Below are positions 3,802 to 59,930 of a DNA stretch of 64,000 bases, one piece after another. The position numbers were made by a program, and so were the translations under genes. The notes under the pieces are model-generated. The model saw only the letters and a list, made by a program, of their open reading frames with translations, had not been told where the DNA came from and ran no database searches. Numbering within the stretch: the first letter of the stretch is position 1; each line of letters starts with the position of its first letter. The stretch spans positions 620,001-684,000 of the forward strand of contig NZ_CP160453.1 in assembly GCF_040744945.1 (NCBI RefSeq), given 5' to 3'. The stretch is from Saccharothrix sp. HUAS TT1 (lineage in GTDB: Bacteria > Actinomycetota > Actinomycetes > Mycobacteriales > Pseudonocardiaceae).

Positions 3802-4137
3802 TCAGGGGACCGACCGACGAGTCCAGGAGCCGAGGTGCCGCGCCGCCTCGACGTGGTCCACCGCACCGGTGGCGAGACCGATGACCAAGTCGTAGGCGTC
3901 GTCCTCGGGTGCGTCCAAGTCGATTCCGTTGAGGCCGTGGAAGACGAACGCCGCCAGCCACCCCAGCCGCTTGTTGCCGTCGATCAACGGGTGGTTGCGT
4001 ACGATCGGCTCCAGCAGCACGGCGGCCTTCTCGTCCACCCCGCCGTAGGCGTCCCGCCCCGTCAGCGACGACCGCGACGGTGGGCGGCCGAGGTCGTGGG
4101 CCGGCAGGTCTTCCAGGGGCGGGTACTCGAAGTTCAC
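3802..4137 (-). CDS. doc: Doc-type Fic-family toxin
   Basis: 111 residues. The Doc active-site motif is present as HPLIDGNKRLGW (His49, Asp53, Asn55, Lys56, Arg57), followed by the typical FHGLNGIDLDAPEDDAYDLV region. Doc proteins inactivate EF-Tu by phosphorylation. The N-terminal helical part is about 20 residues shorter than in typical 125-residue Doc proteins: the segment between YPPLEDL and LGRPPSRSS is missing. Activity is therefore uncertain. The GTG start at 4137 overlaps the stop of the upstream small gene as GTGA, so toxin and antitoxin are coupled. Both are flanked by a repeat of the ychF 3' end. Confidence 0.85.
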   Translation of the reverse strand: MNFEYPPLEDLPAHDLGRPPSRSSLTGRDAYGGVDEKAAVLLEPIVRNHPLIDGNKRLGWLAAFVFHGLNGIDLDAPEDDAYDLVIGLATGAVDHVEAARHLGSWTRRSVP

Positions 4138-4268
4138 TGCGAGAGCCGGTCGAGCAACCCCGCGTACCGCTCGCGGCCCTCACCGGAGAGTGCCCGGACA
4201 CGGTCCTGGCGGACCCGGCGCGCGGCGGCGTCCGCGCGTTCCTGCTCCTCGGTCGGCCTTGACGTCAT
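4134..4268 (-). CDS. Putative antitoxin of the Doc module (44 residues)
   Basis: A small charged frame beginning MTSRPTEEQERADAAARRVR and ending GLLDRLSQ. It is helix-prone with alternating acidic and basic residues and no hydrophobic segment. Its stop overlaps the Doc GTG start by 4 bp (GTGA), the classic arrangement for an antitoxin translated first. I do not recognise the sequence as Phd, and 44 residues is short for a DNA-binding antitoxin. It may only supply a neutralising helix, or may itself have been shortened. The antitoxin role is inferred from gene order and coupling. Confidence 0.6.
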   Translation of the reverse strand: MTSRPTEEQERADAAARRVRQDRVRALSGEGRERYAGLLDRLSQ

Positions 4269-4346
4269 CGCCACACCACCGATCTTTCGCCGGACGCCGT
4301 CGAGGGGTGGCGCGCTGACTCCTGCGCGGGAGGTGTCGGGCCGCGA

Positions 4347-5426
<1,080 letters not shown>

Positions 5427-7293: not shown

Positions 7294-8136
7294 TCACTCG
7301 TCGTCGCGGGGGCGGGGGCGGCGGGGACGACCGCCTTCGCGGGGCGGGGCGGGACGGCGGGGGCGGTCCGGGTTGCCGGTGGCGTTGGCCGGGCGGGGGC
7401 GCTTGGGGCGGCTCTCGTCACCGTCCGCGGCGGCGGGGCGGCGGCGTTCGGCGGGAGCGTCGGCCCGGTCGGCGCGATCGGCCCGGTCGGCTCGGGGGCG
7501 CTTCTTGGGGCGGTCCTCCGACGGCTGCGGCTTCTCGGCGGCGGCCCGGTCAGCGCGGTCAGCCCGTTCGGCGCGGTCGGACCGGTCTGCGCGGTCGGCC
7601 TTGTCGGCGCGACGCGACTTCTCCGGCTTGCGCTTGGCCTCGCGGATCTCGTCCTTGGTCAGCCGGTTCGGGTCCTTCTGCCTCATCACCCGCAGGATGC
7701 CCAGCACCACCGTGCACGCCGTGGTGATCGCCATCGCCGGGAAGCCGTCGATCAGCGGCTTGCCCAGCTTCAGCCCCGCCGACGCGAGCCCGCCCTCGGG
7801 CAGCCCCTGGGTGAACACCACCAGCAGCGGCACCACGATGGCCAGCACGAGCGGCGGCTGGACGACCGGGCCGAACATCGAGCGGCGCTCGACGAACACG
7901 ACCGCGCCGACGCAGCCGACGAAGAACGTGATCCCGAACACCCAGCCCACGGTCTGAGCGGCCGAGCCTACGTCGACGTAGGTGCCGACGATGGCCACCA
8001 CGAACGCGATGAGCACAGCCGCCCACCAGGGCAAACCCCTAAAGCTGCCGAACATGGCGCGGTCGTTCCAGCGGACGGCGGAAAGCTCGTCGTCCTCCGG
8101 TTCGCTGCGCGAGTCGTCACGCATAGCAGCGGTCAC
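7294..8136 (-). CDS. DUF6542-like membrane protein with Ala-Asp-Arg repeat tail
   Basis: About 280 residues. The N-terminal half has four hydrophobic helices (LPWWAAVLIAFVVAIVG, VGWVFGITFFVGCVGAVVFV, LVLAIVVPLLVVF, AMAITTACTVVLGI). The C-terminal half is very basic and acidic by turns, with imperfect tandem ADR/RAD tripeptides (ADKADRADRSDRAERADRAD and a second run) and an RP-rich end. I recognise the membrane part as the actinobacterial family around Rv1111c, function unknown; it sits between ychF and ispH in mycobacteria too. The GTG at 8136 has GAGGAG upstream; a GTG two codons earlier is possible. Confidence 0.75.
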   Translation of the reverse strand: MTAAMRDDSRSEPEDDELSAVRWNDRAMFGSFRGLPWWAAVLIAFVVAIVGTYVDVGSAAQTVGWVFGITFFVGCVGAVVFVERRSMFGPVVQPPLVLAIVVPLLVVFTQGLPEGGLASAGLKLGKPLIDGFPAMAITTACTVVLGILRVMRQKDPNRLTKDEIREAKRKPEKSRRADKADRADRSDRAERADRADRAAAEKPQPSEDRPKKRPRADRADRADRADAPAERRRPAAADGDESRPKRPRPANATGNPDRPRRPAPPREGGRPRRPRPRDDE

Positions 8137-9207: not shown

Positions 9208-10701
9208 GTGAAGATCCTGCACACGTCCGACTGGCACGTGGGCCGCACCTTCCACGGTCGTGACCTGCTGCAAGAGCAGGAAGCAGTGCTCAGCGGCCTG
9301 GCGGACACGATTTCGGACGAGCGGGTCGACGTGGTCGTGGTCGCGGGTGACCTGTTCGACCGGGCGGTGCCGAACGCGGAGGCGGTCGCGGTGTGCTCGC
9401 GGGTGCTCAAGCGGTTGCGCGCGGCGGGCGCGAAGATCGTGATCACGCCGGGCAACCACGACTCGGCGGCCAGGCTCGGCTTCCTGGGCGCGTTCGCCGA
9501 GGCCGGCGGCCTGCACTTGCGGACGCGGGTGGCCGAGCTGCACCAGCCGGTCCTGTTCGCCGACGCCCACGGCCCGGTGGCGGTGTACGGAATCCCGTTC
9601 CTTGAGCCGGAGACAGCCCGCCACGCCCTCGGCATCGAAACAAGCGCAGCTACTAAATCTAGCGCCGCTAGCAAAAAGAGCAGCGCCAGCAAAGCGGCCG
9701 GAGCTAGCGGAGCGATCGAGACTGCCAGGGCTAGCAAATCTAGCGGCGCTAGCAGTACGAGCGAAGCTAGCGAATCAGGCCGGGCCAGCAGCGCTAGCAA
9801 GACAAGCGACAACAGCAGCGCTAGCACGGCAGGCGGCGACAGCGGGACAGGTAGGACGAGTGGATCTAGCAGTGCTAGCGCTGCGAGCGGTGACAGCGAG
9901 GCTAGTGGGCTGGACGGAGCTAGCGGTGCTAGTGAAGCGAGCGGTGGTAGCAGGGTTGGTGGGGCGGACAGCGGTGGTGGGGTGGGTGAGGTCAGGGGGC
10001 ACGCCGGGGTGCTGACCGAGGCGATGCGGCGCGTCCGGCAGGATCTGGCCGGTCGGCCGGGCGCTCGGTCGGTGGTGCTGGCGCACGCGTTCGTGACCGG
10101 CGGCGAGCCGTGCGAGTCCGAGCGCACGATCGCGGTCGGTGGGGTGCAGGACGTGCCGGGCTCGGTGTTCTCCGGGGTCGACTACGTGGCCCTCGGCCAC
10201 CTGCACGGGCAGCAGACACTCGCCGACCACTTGCGGTACTCGGGCAGTCCGGTGGCGTACTCGTTCTCCGAAGCACGACACCACAAGTCGGTCTGGCTGG
10301 TGGAACTGGACGCGGGTGGGCTGGCCGGGGTGGAACGGCGATCCCTGCCGGTGCCCCGCTCGCTGTCGACGTTGAACGGCACGCTGGAAGACCTGCTGCT
10401 GGACCCCGGGCACGAGCCGGTGCACGACCACTTCCTCTCCGTGACCCTGACCGACCAGGTCCGACCGCTGGACGCGTTGCGGCGCCTGCAGAAGCGCTTC
10501 CCGCACGCCGTGCACGTCGAATGGCGCCCGGAGGGCGGGCGGACCGGTGAACTGCGCTTCGCCGAACGGGTGCGCGGCCGCACCGACGAGGAGATCGCCT
10601 GCTGCTTCATCGAGGACGTGCGCGGCGACCAGCCGGGACGGCGTGAGCTGGACCTGCTGCGCGAGGCGTTCGCCGCCGCCGCCCGGGAGGAGGACGCGTG
10701 A
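9208..10701 (+). CDS. sbcD: Exonuclease SbcD with a large (Ala-Ser-Xaa)n insertion
   Basis: 497 residues, about 105 more than a typical actinobacterial SbcD. The phosphodiesterase motifs are intact: HTSDWHVGR near the N-terminus, VVAGDLFDRA, TPGNHDSAARLG, LAHAFV and ALGHLHGQQ. With SbcC it forms the Mre11-Rad50-type nuclease that cleaves DNA hairpins. Between GIPFLEPETARHALGI (ending near residue 144) and LTEAMRRVRQDL is a low-complexity stretch of Ser, Ala, Gly and charged residues with three-residue periodicity, probably a disordered loop. The catalytic residues flank it, so the enzyme may still work. The start is a GTG at 9208; the stop overlaps sbcC. Confidence 0.95.
   Translation: MKILHTSDWHVGRTFHGRDLLQEQEAVLSGLADTISDERVDVVVVAGDLFDRAVPNAEAVAVCSRVLKRLRAAGAKIVITPGNHDSAARLGFLGAFAEAGGLHLRTRVAELHQPVLFADAHGPVAVYGIPFLEPETARHALGIETSAATKSSAASKKSSASKAAGASGAIETARASKSSGASSTSEASESGRASSASKTSDNSSASTAGGDSGTGRTSGSSSASAASGDSEASGLDGASGASEASGGSRVGGADSGGGVGEVRGHAGVLTEAMRRVRQDLAGRPGARSVVLAHAFVTGGEPCESERTIAVGGVQDVPGSVFSGVDYVALGHLHGQQTLADHLRYSGSPVAYSFSEARHHKSVWLVELDAGGLAGVERRSLPVPRSLSTLNGTLEDLLLDPGHEPVHDHFLSVTLTDQVRPLDALRRLQKRFPHAVHVEWRPEGGRTGELRFAERVRGRTDEEIACCFIEDVRGDQPGRRELDLLREAFAAAAREEDA
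9640..9950 (+). repeat. 9-bp tandem repeat, GCT AGC NNN, inside sbcD
   Basis: Fourteen CTAG tetranucleotides occur between 9659 and 9932 (first bases 9659, 9668, 9704, 9731, 9740, 9749, 9767, 9794, 9821, 9866, 9875, 9902, 9920, 9929). Every spacing is a multiple of 9 bp and in phase with the reading frame. The unit encodes Ala-Ser-Xaa, degenerating to Thr-Ser, Asp-Ser or Gly at some copies; about 34 units are recognisable. Codons such as GCT, TCT, ACT and AAA, rare in the flanking genes, are frequent here, so base composition differs sharply from the rest of sbcD. Confidence 0.95.
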
Positions 10702-13577
10702 AGCTGCACCGGTTGGCGGTCAGCGGGTTCGGCCCGTACGCGCGGCACGAGGAGGTCGACTTCGACCTGCTCGGCGCCGACGGCCTGTTCCTGCTGCACG
10801 GCGACACGGGCGCGGGCAAGACGACGCTGCTCGACGCGGTGGCGTTCGCGCTGTTCGGCAAGGTCCCCGGCGCGCGCGGCGACGTGAAGAGGTTGCGCTG
10901 CGACTACGCCGACCGGGACACGCCGACCTACGTCGAGCTGGAGCTGACCGTGCGCGGCAGGCGGTTCCGGCTCAAGCGCAGCCCGGAGTACGAACGGCCG
11001 AAGAAGCGCGGTGACGGCGCGACCAGGCAGCAGGCGCAGGTGTCGCTGACGTGGGTCAGCGGGTGGACCGGTGAGGGGCACACCCGGATCGACGACGTGG
11101 CCCGCGAGGTCGAGGGCCTGCTCGGGATGACCGCCGAGCAGTTCTTCCAGGTGGTGCTGCTGCCGCAGGGCGAGTTCGCCCGGTTCCTGCGCGCCGAGAC
11201 CGCCGAGCGGGAGAAGCTGCTGGAGAAGCTGTTCGGCACCGAGCGCTTCCTGGACGTCGAGCGGTGGTTCCGCGACCGCAGGCGGGAGCGCAAGCGCGAG
11301 GTCGAACAGCTCGGCCTGGTGCACCGCGGCCTGGTGCAGCGGGTCGCCGAGGTGGCGCTGGAGGAGCCGCCGGAGGGCGGTGGCGACGCGGAATGGCTCA
11401 GCTCGCTGCTCAAGCGGCTGGACGAGGTCGAGCGGGACGCCGAGCAGGTCGCGGCGCGGGCGACCGCCGGGCGGGCCGAGGCGGAGCTGGTGTGGCAGGA
11501 GGCGCGGGCCGGGCACGAGCGGGTGCGCCGGGTGCGGGAGGCGCGGCGCAACCTCGACCGGTTCGCCGAGGTGGAGCCGAGCCTGCGGGCGTGGGTCGCC
11601 GAACGCGACGCGGCCAGGCAGGCCGCGGTCGTCGTGCCCGCGCACGAGCGCGCGGTGAAGCTGGAGCGCGAGCTGGCCGCCGCCGTCGCCCGGGAGCGGG
11701 CCGCGGCCGACGCGGTGGCCGCCCTCGGCTACCAGGGGTCGGACCTGCGCGGTGACGGCGAGCGCCTGCGCGAGGAGGCGGGCGGCCTGACCGGCCTGGC
11801 CGCCGACGCCGAGCGGCAGCGCGCCGACCAGCGGCGGATCGCGCAGCTGGACCGCGACGTCGCGACCACGTCCCAGCGGTTGGCCGCGCTGGTCACCCAG
11901 CTGGACGAGGTGCCGCCCCGGCTGGCCGCCGCGAAGACCGCGGTCGAGGAGTCGGCGGAGGCCGCCGCCCGCCTGCCGCAGACCTCCGGCCTGGCCGCCG
12001 CCGCGGGTGAGCTGCCCGGTGTCGAGCGGGCGTTCCGGGAGGCCGACGAGGCGCGCCGGGACGCGGTGGACGCGCAGCAGAAGGCCCGCGAGCGGCTGCT
12101 GCGCATCCGGCAGGAGCGGCTGGACGGCATGGCGGTCGAGCTGGCCGGGCAGCTGCACGCGGGTCGGGGCTGCCCGGTGTGCGGTTCGGCCGAGCACCCG
12201 TCGCCCGCGCAGCCGGTGCTGGACATGGTGACGGCGGCCGACGAGGACCGGGCGGCCGAGGACGACCAGCGCGCGCTCGAACGGCGTCAGGCGGCCGAGG
12301 CGGAGTCGCAGAAGCTGGGGGCGCGGCTGACGTTGCTGCGCGAGCAGCTGGGCGACCGCCCGCCGGCCGAGCTGGAGCGCGAGCACCGGTCCGTGGCCGC
12401 GCAGGCCGAGCAGCTGGAGGTCCGGCAGAACGAGCTGGCCGAGCTGGAGGACAAGGTGCGGCGCGCGCTCGAACAGCGTGGCGCGCTGGAACGCCAACTG
12501 GCCGAGGCCGGCGCGCAGCGCAAGGAGCTGGCGGACGCGGTCGAGGAGCGGGGCGCGCGGCTGGAGGAGGCGCGCGGCGACTTCCCGGACGTGGTGACGC
12601 GCCGGGCGCACCTCGGCGACCTGGCCGACGCGCTGACCGGGCTGGCCGCGTGCCGCACGACCGTGGTCGAGCACGAGGAGCGGCTGGCCGACGACCGGCT
12701 GGAGGTGGCGCGGCTGGCGGCGGAGGCCGGGTTCGCCGACGTGGCGGAGGCCCTGGCCGCGGTCCGGCCGGCCGCCGCGATCGCCGAGCTGGAGAACCGC
12801 GTCCGCGACGTCGAGAAGACCCGGACGGCGGCCGAGAGCACGCTGGCCGAGCTGCCCGACGTCGACCCGGCCGACGAGGTCGACGTGACCGGCGCGGAGG
12901 AGGCGTTCCGCCGGGCGGGCGACGTCGCGACCGACGCCACCACGGCGTGGACCGACGCCCGCACGAGGGCCGCCCGCGCCGCCACCCTGGCCGGGCAGCT
13001 GCGGGCCGCGTGGCTGCGGCTGGAGCCGGTGGAGGCCGAGTTCGCCGAGCTGGACGCGTTGACCGACGTGATCAACGGCATGGGCCAGAACGCCCGGAGC
13101 ATGACCCTGCGCACCTACGTGCTGGCCGCCCGGCTGGAGGAGGTCGCGGTCGCCGCCGGCGCCCGGCTGGAGCGGATGAGCCAGGGCCGCTACCGGTTCG
13201 TGCACTCGATCGAGGCCGGTCCGCGCGGCACCAGGGGCGGGCTGGGCCTGGACGTGATGGACGACTACTCGGGGCAGCAGCGGCCGGCGAAGACGCTGTC
13301 CGGCGGCGAGTCGTTCCTGGCGTCGCTGGCGCTGGCGCTCGGGCTGGCCGACGTGGTGGCCGCGGGCGCGGTGCTGGACACGCTGTTCATCGACGAGGGC
13401 TTCGGCACGCTCGACGCGGAGACCCTGGAGCTGGTGATGACCACGCTGGACGAGCTGCGGGCCGGTGGCCGGGTGGTCGGGCTGGTGTCGCACGTCGAGG
13501 AGCTGCGGCAGCGCATCCCGACCCGGCTGCGGGTGCGCAAGGCGCGGGAGGGCTCCTCGCTGGAGCTGACGGCCTAG
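10698..13577 (+). CDS. sbcC: Exonuclease subunit SbcC (Rad50-like SMC ATPase)
   Basis: 959 residues. Walker A GDTGAGKTTLLDAV is near residue 35, long coiled coils flank a zinc hook CPVCGSAEHPSP near residue 492, the ABC signature LSGGESFLASLALALG is near 868, and Walker B with D-loop LDTLFIDEGFGTLD is near 895. It provides the DNA-binding ATPase of the SbcCD nuclease. The GTG start overlaps the sbcD stop (GTGA), so the subunits are co-translated. The last codons (LTA and stop) form the first unit of a tandem repeat continuing downstream. Confidence 0.96.
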   Translation: MKLHRLAVSGFGPYARHEEVDFDLLGADGLFLLHGDTGAGKTTLLDAVAFALFGKVPGARGDVKRLRCDYADRDTPTYVELELTVRGRRFRLKRSPEYERPKKRGDGATRQQAQVSLTWVSGWTGEGHTRIDDVAREVEGLLGMTAEQFFQVVLLPQGEFARFLRAETAEREKLLEKLFGTERFLDVERWFRDRRRERKREVEQLGLVHRGLVQRVAEVALEEPPEGGGDAEWLSSLLKRLDEVERDAEQVAARATAGRAEAELVWQEARAGHERVRRVREARRNLDRFAEVEPSLRAWVAERDAARQAAVVVPAHERAVKLERELAAAVARERAAADAVAALGYQGSDLRGDGERLREEAGGLTGLAADAERQRADQRRIAQLDRDVATTSQRLAALVTQLDEVPPRLAAAKTAVEESAEAAARLPQTSGLAAAAGELPGVERAFREADEARRDAVDAQQKARERLLRIRQERLDGMAVELAGQLHAGRGCPVCGSAEHPSPAQPVLDMVTAADEDRAAEDDQRALERRQAAEAESQKLGARLTLLREQLGDRPPAELEREHRSVAAQAEQLEVRQNELAELEDKVRRALEQRGALERQLAEAGAQRKELADAVEERGARLEEARGDFPDVVTRRAHLGDLADALTGLAACRTTVVEHEERLADDRLEVARLAAEAGFADVAEALAAVRPAAAIAELENRVRDVEKTRTAAESTLAELPDVDPADEVDVTGAEEAFRRAGDVATDATTAWTDARTRAARAATLAGQLRAAWLRLEPVEAEFAELDALTDVINGMGQNARSMTLRTYVLAARLEEVAVAAGARLERMSQGRYRFVHSIEAGPRGTRGGLGLDVMDDYSGQQRPAKTLSGGESFLASLALALGLADVVAAGAVLDTLFIDEGFGTLDAETLELVMTTLDELRAGGRVVGLVSHVEELRQRIPTRLRVRKAREGSSLELTA

Positions 13578-58829: not shown

Positions 58830-59930
58830 TCACCACTGCTGCGGCGGCTGCTGGCCGTAGGGGTTCTGCTGCTGCGGCTGGCCGTACGGGTTCGACGCGG
58901 GCGGCTGGCCGTACGGGTTCGACGCGGGCGCCTGACCGTACGGGTTCGGCTGGCCGTAACCGCCACCGGCGCCGGGGTAGCCGCCGGGGGCCGCGCCGGC
59001 GGGCGCGTTCACCACGACCGTGCCCATGATCTTGTCGGCCCACGTCTGCTTCTTGGCCTCCCACAGCGGCGCGAACCAGCCCGCGTAGCAGGGCAGCGAG
59101 TCGACGAAGTGGCACAGGTGCCGGACGAAGGCGTTGCCGAAGCCGATCGGCTGCCCCGTCTCCTCGCTGATGAGCTTGACCTTGGCGACCTTCTTGCCCA
59201 TCGACTGGCCGGTGGTGCCCGCCAGGTACCACGAGTTGTAGATCATGAAGCCGAGCATGCCCAGCGCGCCGACGCCGGCGAGGATGAAGTAGATCGTCAT
59301 GTCGCCGGTGGCCGCGCCGATGCCCGCGAGGACGCCGAAGATGGCGCCCGGCGCGGCGTAGTCGATCAGGAAGCCGACCGCGCGGCTGCCCCACTCCGCG
59401 TAACCGCCCGTGGGCGCGCCGTAAGCGGGCTGGCCGTAGGACGGCTGCGCGCCCCACGCCTGCTGCTGCGGCTGCCCGTACGGGTTGCTCAGCTGCGGCT
59501 GGCCGTACGGGTTGGACGGCTGCTGGCCGTACGGGTTCGCCTGCGGCTGGCCGTACGGGTTGGACGGCGGCTGCTGGCCGTAGGGCTGCTGGCCGTACTG
59601 CGCGGGCGGCTGCTGGCCGTAGGGGTTCTGCTGGGCCGGGAACGCGCCCGAGCCGGGCTGCTGCGCGGGCTGGCCGTACGGGTTCGACGGCGGCTGCTGG
59701 GTCATGCCGGGTGCGACGACCTGGGTCGCGTCCGGGTTCGACGGCGGCTGCTGGGGTTGCTGGCCGGAGGGCACCACCTGGGTCGCCTCCGGCGGCGGGA
59801 AGGCAGGGGGCTGGCCGCCGCTCGGCACGACCTGGGTCGCGTCGGCGTTCGAGGGCTGGGCACCCTGCCCCTGCTCCTGCTGGTCGTGACCGCCGAACTG
59901 CTGGTTCCCTGGCGGCTGCGGAGCGTTCAT
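58830..59930 (-). CDS. RDD-family membrane protein with NPYGQ repeats (proline-rich antigen-like)
   Basis: 366 residues. The N-terminal ~180 residues are low-complexity, with repeated ATQVVPSG and SNPYGQPQ units. The RDD domain follows, with GSRAVGFLIDYAAPGAIFGV, a second helix IYFILAGVGALGMLGFMIY and GTTGQSMGKKVAKVKLISEE. A shorter run of NPYGQ repeats closes the protein. M. tuberculosis Rv1078 (Pra antigen) has the same place and layout. The cytoplasmic Pro/Gln tails may be disordered or self-associating. The ATG at 59930 gives MNAPQPPGNQQFGG. Confidence 0.9.
   Translation of the reverse strand: MNAPQPPGNQQFGGHDQQEQGQGAQPSNADATQVVPSGGQPPAFPPPEATQVVPSGQQPQQPPSNPDATQVVAPGMTQQPPSNPYGQPAQQPGSGAFPAQQNPYGQQPPAQYGQQPYGQQPPSNPYGQPQANPYGQQPSNPYGQPQLSNPYGQPQQQAWGAQPSYGQPAYGAPTGGYAEWGSRAVGFLIDYAAPGAIFGVLAGIGAATGDMTIYFILAGVGALGMLGFMIYNSWYLAGTTGQSMGKKVAKVKLISEETGQPIGFGNAFVRHLCHFVDSLPCYAGWFAPLWEAKKQTWADKIMGTVVVNAPAGAAPGGYPGAGGGYGQPNPYGQAPASNPYGQPPASNPYGQPQQQNPYGQQPPQQW

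Follow-up and report, generated by a model that had tools for sequence, protein, structure and literature searches.

The sbcD gene of an actinomycete genome carries an in-frame insert that is probably a translated array of putative TetR_C_33 operators, lodged in a permissive loop of SbcD; this reading was reached by sequence comparison and is held with moderate confidence. The window, i.e., the whole 64-kb stretch of DNA that was analysed, corresponds to 620-684 kb of its 8.5-Mb contig, and the genome is Saccharothrix-like as judged by its sbcD relatives. The features of the locus are as follows.

9208..10701, + strand: sbcD, 497 amino acids from the GTG at 9208 (alternative upstream starts TTG 9178 and GTG 9199), identified by profile matches
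about 9637..9987, + strand: in-frame insert of 117 codons (351 bp, or 39 x 9 bp), built of RRN-GCT-AGC units and delimited by nine alignments, a unit table and AlphaFold2
9659..9671: perfect word CTAGCRNYGCTAG, core GCC
9740..9752: perfect word CTAGCRNYGCTAG, core GGC
9785..9797: word with one mismatch
9866..9878: perfect word CTAGCRNYGCTAG, core AGT
9875..9887: word with one mismatch, overlapping the third perfect word
9920..9932: perfect word CTAGCRNYGCTAG, core GGT
10698..13577, + strand: sbcC, overlapping the end of sbcD; open reading frame with PF13476 and SbcC_Walker_B PF13558 above cut-off

As sbcC overlaps the end of sbcD, the two probably form an operon in which the array precedes sbcC. 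The array had been recognised in an earlier note on this DNA, the interpretation of which was partly supported.

SbcD and the composition of its insert

Judged by profile, C-terminal domain and motifs, the protein is a member of the SbcD exonucleases. It matched TIGR00619 with 161.9 bits (cut-off 77.65) and PF12320 with 32.3 (cut-off 24.4), and PF00149 was also above cut-off. The match to SbcD in the PDB was broken into two parts flanking the insert, and the two halves of the profile likewise lay on either side of it. It had been claimed that the nuclease motifs around the insert are intact, and the eight residues D8, H10, D48, N83, H84, H293, H331 and H333, which we take to be conserved metal/nuclease motif residues of SbcD, were indeed invariant in 50 aligned sequences, our own included.

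When sbcD was aligned pairwise with nine relatives, six of the alignments showed a gap of exactly 351 bp, its position varying from 9633-9983 to 9640-9990; in the remaining three, the aligner split it. The array is in-frame and rich in Ser, as had been described; however, it comprises 117 codons and not about 105, and Ser takes the third-codon place in 27 of 38 units (9643 to 9984) and not in every one. The search of related genomes that the earlier note had proposed found the insert absent from 80 sbcD loci of other species (80 of at least 504 confirmed), in which the sbcD match spans 1086-1182 bp as against 1494 bp here. The loop has 15-21 residues in the 33 of these 80 loci that were readable by a simple motif pair and 132 residues in our protein. 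The insert was also absent from the 119 nearest homologous proteins, 368-424 residues long (the best 120 of 7923, one being the protein itself). Among named genomes, the closest sbcD loci were those of Saccharothrix, followed by Lentzea. The protein database lists the SbcD protein itself on two contigs, which are not necessarily independent assemblies.

In the AlphaFold2 model, residues 146-261 had a pLDDT below 50, together with two short segments elsewhere (mean pLDDT 66), and a structure search with the model still ranked SbcD structures first. The insert is hydrophilic and predicted to be a disordered loop, at a site tolerating one, in agreement with the disordered linker suggested earlier.

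Fourteen CTAG tetranucleotides lie within 9659-9932 (274 bp; 275 bp had been claimed), with spacings that are all multiples of 9 and always in the phase xCT-AGx. The rarity of CTAG was confirmed as well, the whole window having 34 against a mean of 63 in shuffles. The repeat had been written as (GCT AGC NNN)n; the GCT-AGC core stands and GCTAGC occurs in nine exact copies in the array, but GCTAGC-NNN-GCTAGC is found nowhere in the genome, and the true unit is the degenerate RRN-GCT-AGC. The unit that had been missed is the 13-bp palindrome CTAGCRNYGCTAG, which is identical to sites beside a TetR gene; four registers of the array match it perfectly and the majority have 2-7 mismatches. The unusual codon use of the array was borne out: AGC or AGT was used for 33 of its 37 Ser codons compared with 2 of 18 in the rest of sbcD (P 2e-8), GCT for 13 of 25 Ala codons compared with 1 of 44 (P 1.5e-6), and GC3 was 0.56 compared with 0.92.

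The 13-bp word and the TetR_C_33 regulator

CTAGN5CTAG occurs 32 times in our genome and 3-13 times in 16 same-genus genomes (249 family genomes were scanned), with higher counts in some other genera, up to 83 (G030); such counts are misleading alone, those of G202 and G176 being high from other words. The arms CTAGC-N3-GCTAG are intact in 21 of the 32, which lie at 13 places of the genome, and all 21 have the RNY core of CTAGCRNYGCTAG. An RNY core was found in 120 of 121 intact-arm sites from fetched stretches of eight genomes; because many of these stretches were chosen for holding such sites, a fair comparison is possible for the core alone. When arm spacings up to 6 were considered in the same stretches, no site fell outside spacing 3, a result that is not taken as proof because many stretches were picked by the word. 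A 100-kb stretch of G057, from another genus, had 20 exact words and six with one mismatch, beyond which the numbers were background. Six control palindromes gave no exact copy in this stretch, and one of the controls gave 1-2 exact copies in three other sets; GATC words were unsuitable as a control because GATC is common. In a phylum sample of 396 genomes, our genome had 21 words, 37 others had 1-4 and the remainder had none. In the stretches fetched from three same-genus genomes, the operator pair or a single site was all that was present.

In our genome, a word pair adjoins a TetR gene at 4.207 Mb (4206883-4207449), the partner of which is a small divergent DUF4267 gene; an MFS transporter, considered as the partner, proved wrong. 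TetR_N and TetR_C_33 (PF13305) were above cut-off here and in G057. The word lies between the TetR_C_33 gene and a small gene that encodes DUF4267 at three loci (L120, L182 and our own L024) and Anthrone_oxy at another (L129). No literature on DUF4267 together with TetR was found. When one such TetR was searched against 15 chosen genomes, 18 hits in 13 genomes were obtained, and the word was located 11-81 bp from the TetR match in all 13 close homologues and in none of the five distant ones. The sites of the close homologues were arranged as ten pairs 50-51 bp apart, two arrays (18-15-18 and 33-18 bp) and one single site. By its position, CTAGCRNYGCTAG is therefore a candidate operator of an autoregulated TetR_C_33 regulator. 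A TetR was found within 400 bp of the word in five of six fetched loci of the family sample and in eight of 29 of the phylum sample; as the latter proportion is small, single words elsewhere may be due to chance or other uses.

The words away from the TetR gene resemble these promoter sites in their surroundings. The base preferences 1-10 bp outside the word were compared between the 19 own words that do not belong to the TetR gene, tested together with the four of sbcD included, and 33 TetR sites; they correlated with r 0.83, and with r 0.82 when sbcD was left out. The 33 sites came from loci taken as array-free, although G109 among them has intragenic words. Other palindromes reached at most 0.41 in 500 draws, and the intragenic words of G057 gave r 0.46. 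One 9-bp step outside the word, a near-CTAG was present in 17 of 66 flanks of TetR sites, 19 of 38 own flanks, 19 of 524 control flanks and 3 of 54 flanks of intragenic G057 words. Given this excess at both TetR and own words, the array with its 9-bp rhythm resembles an operator that has been extended.

Apart from the pair beside the TetR gene, our genome has 19 words: six are outside called ORFs and 13 inside them, the reading being Ala-Ser in 12 and Leu-Ala in the remaining one. They occur, for example, in sbcD, in polyketide synthases and in ORFs that carry an epimerase, a class-V aminotransferase or an O-antigen-ligase domain, and they are grouped along the genome (0.55-0.88, 4.72-4.78 and 7.63 Mb). 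In the polyketide synthase of L026, the words lie between ACP (residues 933-999) and KS (from 1161), and in that of L027 between the dehydratase and enoylreductase parts. The ACP-to-KS linker of L026 (about 4112-4590) is enlarged to about 160 low-complexity residues with two words.

Non-operator words were concentrated within 75 kb of the TetR gene in G158 (12/17), G126 (11/15, leaving out its second 51-bp pair), G109 (5/6) and G142 (7/9), and 3 of 19 were so placed in our genome (P 0.004). In G057, 18 words were found from -40 to +65 kb of the gene, whereas the stretch 5.060-5.100 Mb was free of them and 5.215-5.272 Mb had one; at least 22 further words lie outside this halo, ten of those listed being at 8.72-8.93 Mb. 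These five genomes belong to one other genus and share common ancestry, so they are not independent. Most halo words are in called ORFs (18/19 in G057, 9/12 in G158 and 10/11 in G126) and read mainly as Leu-Ala-x-Leu with the rare codon CTA. The hosts in the G057 cluster include MiaA, CbtA-type and ADP-ribosylglycohydrolase-type genes, and the words of MiaA lie where the protein aligns gap-free to solved MiaA.

Several word positions are common to two or three species while the RNY core differs. In five comparisons, operators included, both arms were kept in 11/18, 10/18, 10/13, 11/13 and 9/13 cases, as against 33/75, 29/97, 33/79, 34/82 and 30/102 for control palindromes in the same comparisons. 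With operators excluded, the arms were clearly more identical than the flanks in four of six comparisons (e.g., 0.964 vs 0.833, with controls at 0.896 vs 0.880), and the difference was small in two comparisons from G057 (0.856 vs 0.820 and 0.800 vs 0.780). G019, of the same genus as G057, has its two operators and no other word genome-wide, and its TetR stretch (-67 to +53 kb) gave no alignment over the G057 word positions except at the operators.

Some further arrangements of the word were noted. In G030, twin six-word arrays spaced 18-15-18-15-18 bp lie 297 bp apart (L179, 6202-6298 and 6499-6595; G030:C1:190000-202000), and the TetR promoter of this genome has an 18-15-18 array as well. A 51-bp word pair is present in G483 (L198, 1501 and 1552), at a 3-kb locus from which a TetR hit is absent. 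The second cluster of G057 (G057:C1:8724606-8926587) has ten listed words, some of them in very long synthase-like ORFs.

Alternative readings of the array

It is possible, though unlikely, that the insert is a low-complexity (Ala-Ser-X)n linker that grew at the protein level, with GCT-AGC as a codon habit and no role for the DNA. The loop is hydrophilic and predicted to be disordered, 12 of the 13 own intragenic words read Ala-Ser, and words occur in the ACP-to-KS linker of one polyketide synthase. However, synonymous codon shuffling inside the array gave a mean of 0.45 perfect words against the four observed, and four of 20,000 trials reached four. Recoding the same protein 5000 times with codons drawn by sbcD and sbcC usage never yielded more than two CTAG, nor any 13-bp word. 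Such a linker also leaves aside the six own words outside called ORFs, the one reading Leu-Ala, the prevailing Leu-Ala-x-Leu of other genomes and the identity of the word with the TetR promoter sites.

A short repeat, selfish or spread by mutation, that entered coding sequence in frame is quite improbable. The Rickettsia palindromic elements are in-frame DNA inserts in coding sequence, and the array is alike in this respect. A repeat family on coding sequence had been among the earlier suggestions, and the scatter of the word over 13 places of the genome, most of them in genes, with loops, linkers and intergenic DNA among the locations, agrees with it, as does its near-absence from same-genus genomes by CTAGN5CTAG. 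On the other hand, what the places have in common is the word with its near flanks, no longer shared body being seen on comparison by eye; the word is moreover identical to a putative regulator site, the MiaA words of G057 arose gap-free, and the nearest promoter sites occur in other genera too.

The words might belong to another architectural protein instead of TetR, which is very doubtful. MatP binds matS, a 13-bp palindrome of 5-RNY-5 geometry located in genes; CTAGCRNYGCTAG has the same geometry and is also found in genes, but its arms are different. The sharpness of the word and its clustered intragenic sites are in line with such a protein. Against it, four genomes have most of their words around the TetR gene, and the confinement to the terminus known for MatP was not observed in our genome or G057. 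The dnaA gene is at 1.49 Mb in our genome and at 7.40 Mb in G057, and the main clusters coincide neither with this gene nor with the point facing it across the chromosome. A terminus or origin macrodomain was therefore rejected; a few words of G057, at 1.7-2.4 Mb, do come close to the facing point.

A contingency repeat varying in length by slippage, as proposed in the earlier note, is highly improbable: the period of 9 bp is in frame and the array is known from a single species in the data, but recent slippage is unlikely because tandem-repeat calling found none at the array, 36 of 39 units are distinct and no unit is identical to an adjacent one, whereas a minisatellite needs near-identical neighbours.

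Three other candidates were rejected. An irony had been seen in a palindromic array inside the gene of a palindrome-cleaving nuclease; a role as hairpin or SbcCD substrate was not supported, since the single strand of the array folds just mildly better than shuffles (z -2.0; 2 of 100 were equally good) and the word is also present outside sbcD, with similar arrays in polyketide synthase, epimerase-type and aminotransferase-type genes and in intergenic DNA. A marker of biosynthetic clusters is partly true for the polyketide synthase ORFs of L026 and L027, yet the G057 cluster is in MiaA and other such genes. As for a phage origin, the two-word array had no hits in viral contigs.

Possible function and related systems

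In the favoured reading of the insert as putative TetR_C_33 operators, the array would prolong the 9-bp half-site rhythm already present in the operator flanks, and the GCT-AGC (Ala-Ser) codons would permit a DNA site and at the same time encode a hydrophilic disordered loop. We infer that TetR dimers may bind the array, whereby the regulator would be held or titrated; the occupied array may also act as a roadblock that hinders transcription into sbcC and so affects SbcCD, and a TetR ligand would release the protein and lift the hindrance. Several observations speak against an operator: the TetR gene is 3.6 Mb away from the array, many registers of which are degenerate, 3 of 19 words are near TetR, and a TetR was present at 8 of 29 phylum loci. 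The flank match of the intragenic G057 words is weaker than that of the own words, and arm conservation is small in the comparisons from this genome. A second close TetR beside sbcD was also considered and rejected, since the region 460-944 kb has no close paralogue, the best of five hits there being at 4e-12.

In TetR_C_33 systems with a divergent partner, a palindromic word lies between the regulator and the partner gene, as it does here; the present case differs in having words in unrelated genes as well, up to 65 kb away elsewhere and megabases away in our genome. The lac O2 operator is an auxiliary operator inside a gene, close to the main operator. The array would likewise be an intragenic operator, but it is located tens of kb to megabases away and it lengthens the protein.

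The nearest published behaviour met so far appears to be that of SegB of Sulfolobales. SegB has a 13-bp palindromic motif, and its sites, the majority of them within genes, are clustered close to the segB locus, others being scattered (PMC12284271). The 13-bp palindrome and the intragenic location are common to both; most words are likewise near the gene of the putative binding protein in G158, G126, G109 and G142, in G057 18 are in the halo and at least 22 elsewhere, and in our genome 3 of 19 are near it. The proteins are unrelated, ours having a TetR fold, and the comparison here is one of sequence, with ChIP, a partition gene and bridging on the side of SegB. Among the literature retrieved under several spellings, the 13-bp word itself was met only in work on an archaeal helicase, as far as the accessible text shows.

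A broader proposal is that TetR_C_33 is a gene-centred organiser of chromosome domains in Pseudonocardiaceae, which would bridge intragenic operator words in a SegB-like manner, perhaps tethered by DUF4267; the remote outposts in Saccharothrix would then be arrays grown in loops and linkers, with SbcD gaining 117 residues. This proposal is speculative and rather unlikely.

If binding is true, a regulator site would have reshaped a core repair protein from within, with 117 codons imposed by what the DNA requires as a binding site. A seemingly local TetR could then own tens of intragenic sites over about 130 kb, several of them kept in place between related species while their RNY cores change. 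The reasons for having regulator sites inside coding sequence (titration, roadblock or bridging) would become testable, and operator arrays would explain some of the low-complexity insertions found in proteins of actinobacteria.

Other repeats are present in the window. At 7459-7611, 9- and 18-bp repeats encoding RAD-type residues lie in the tail of a DUF6542 gene, with no CTAG word there, and at 58846-59755, separate and longer tandem repeats of 24-27 bp with Gly-rich coding lie in and beside an RDD-family gene. In the segment 41709-46413 (- strand), the genes for an integrase of phage type, a RepSA initiator of pSAM2 type and a protein with an FtsK/SpoIIIE domain adjoin one another; this is probably an actinomycete integrative conjugative element of the AICE type.
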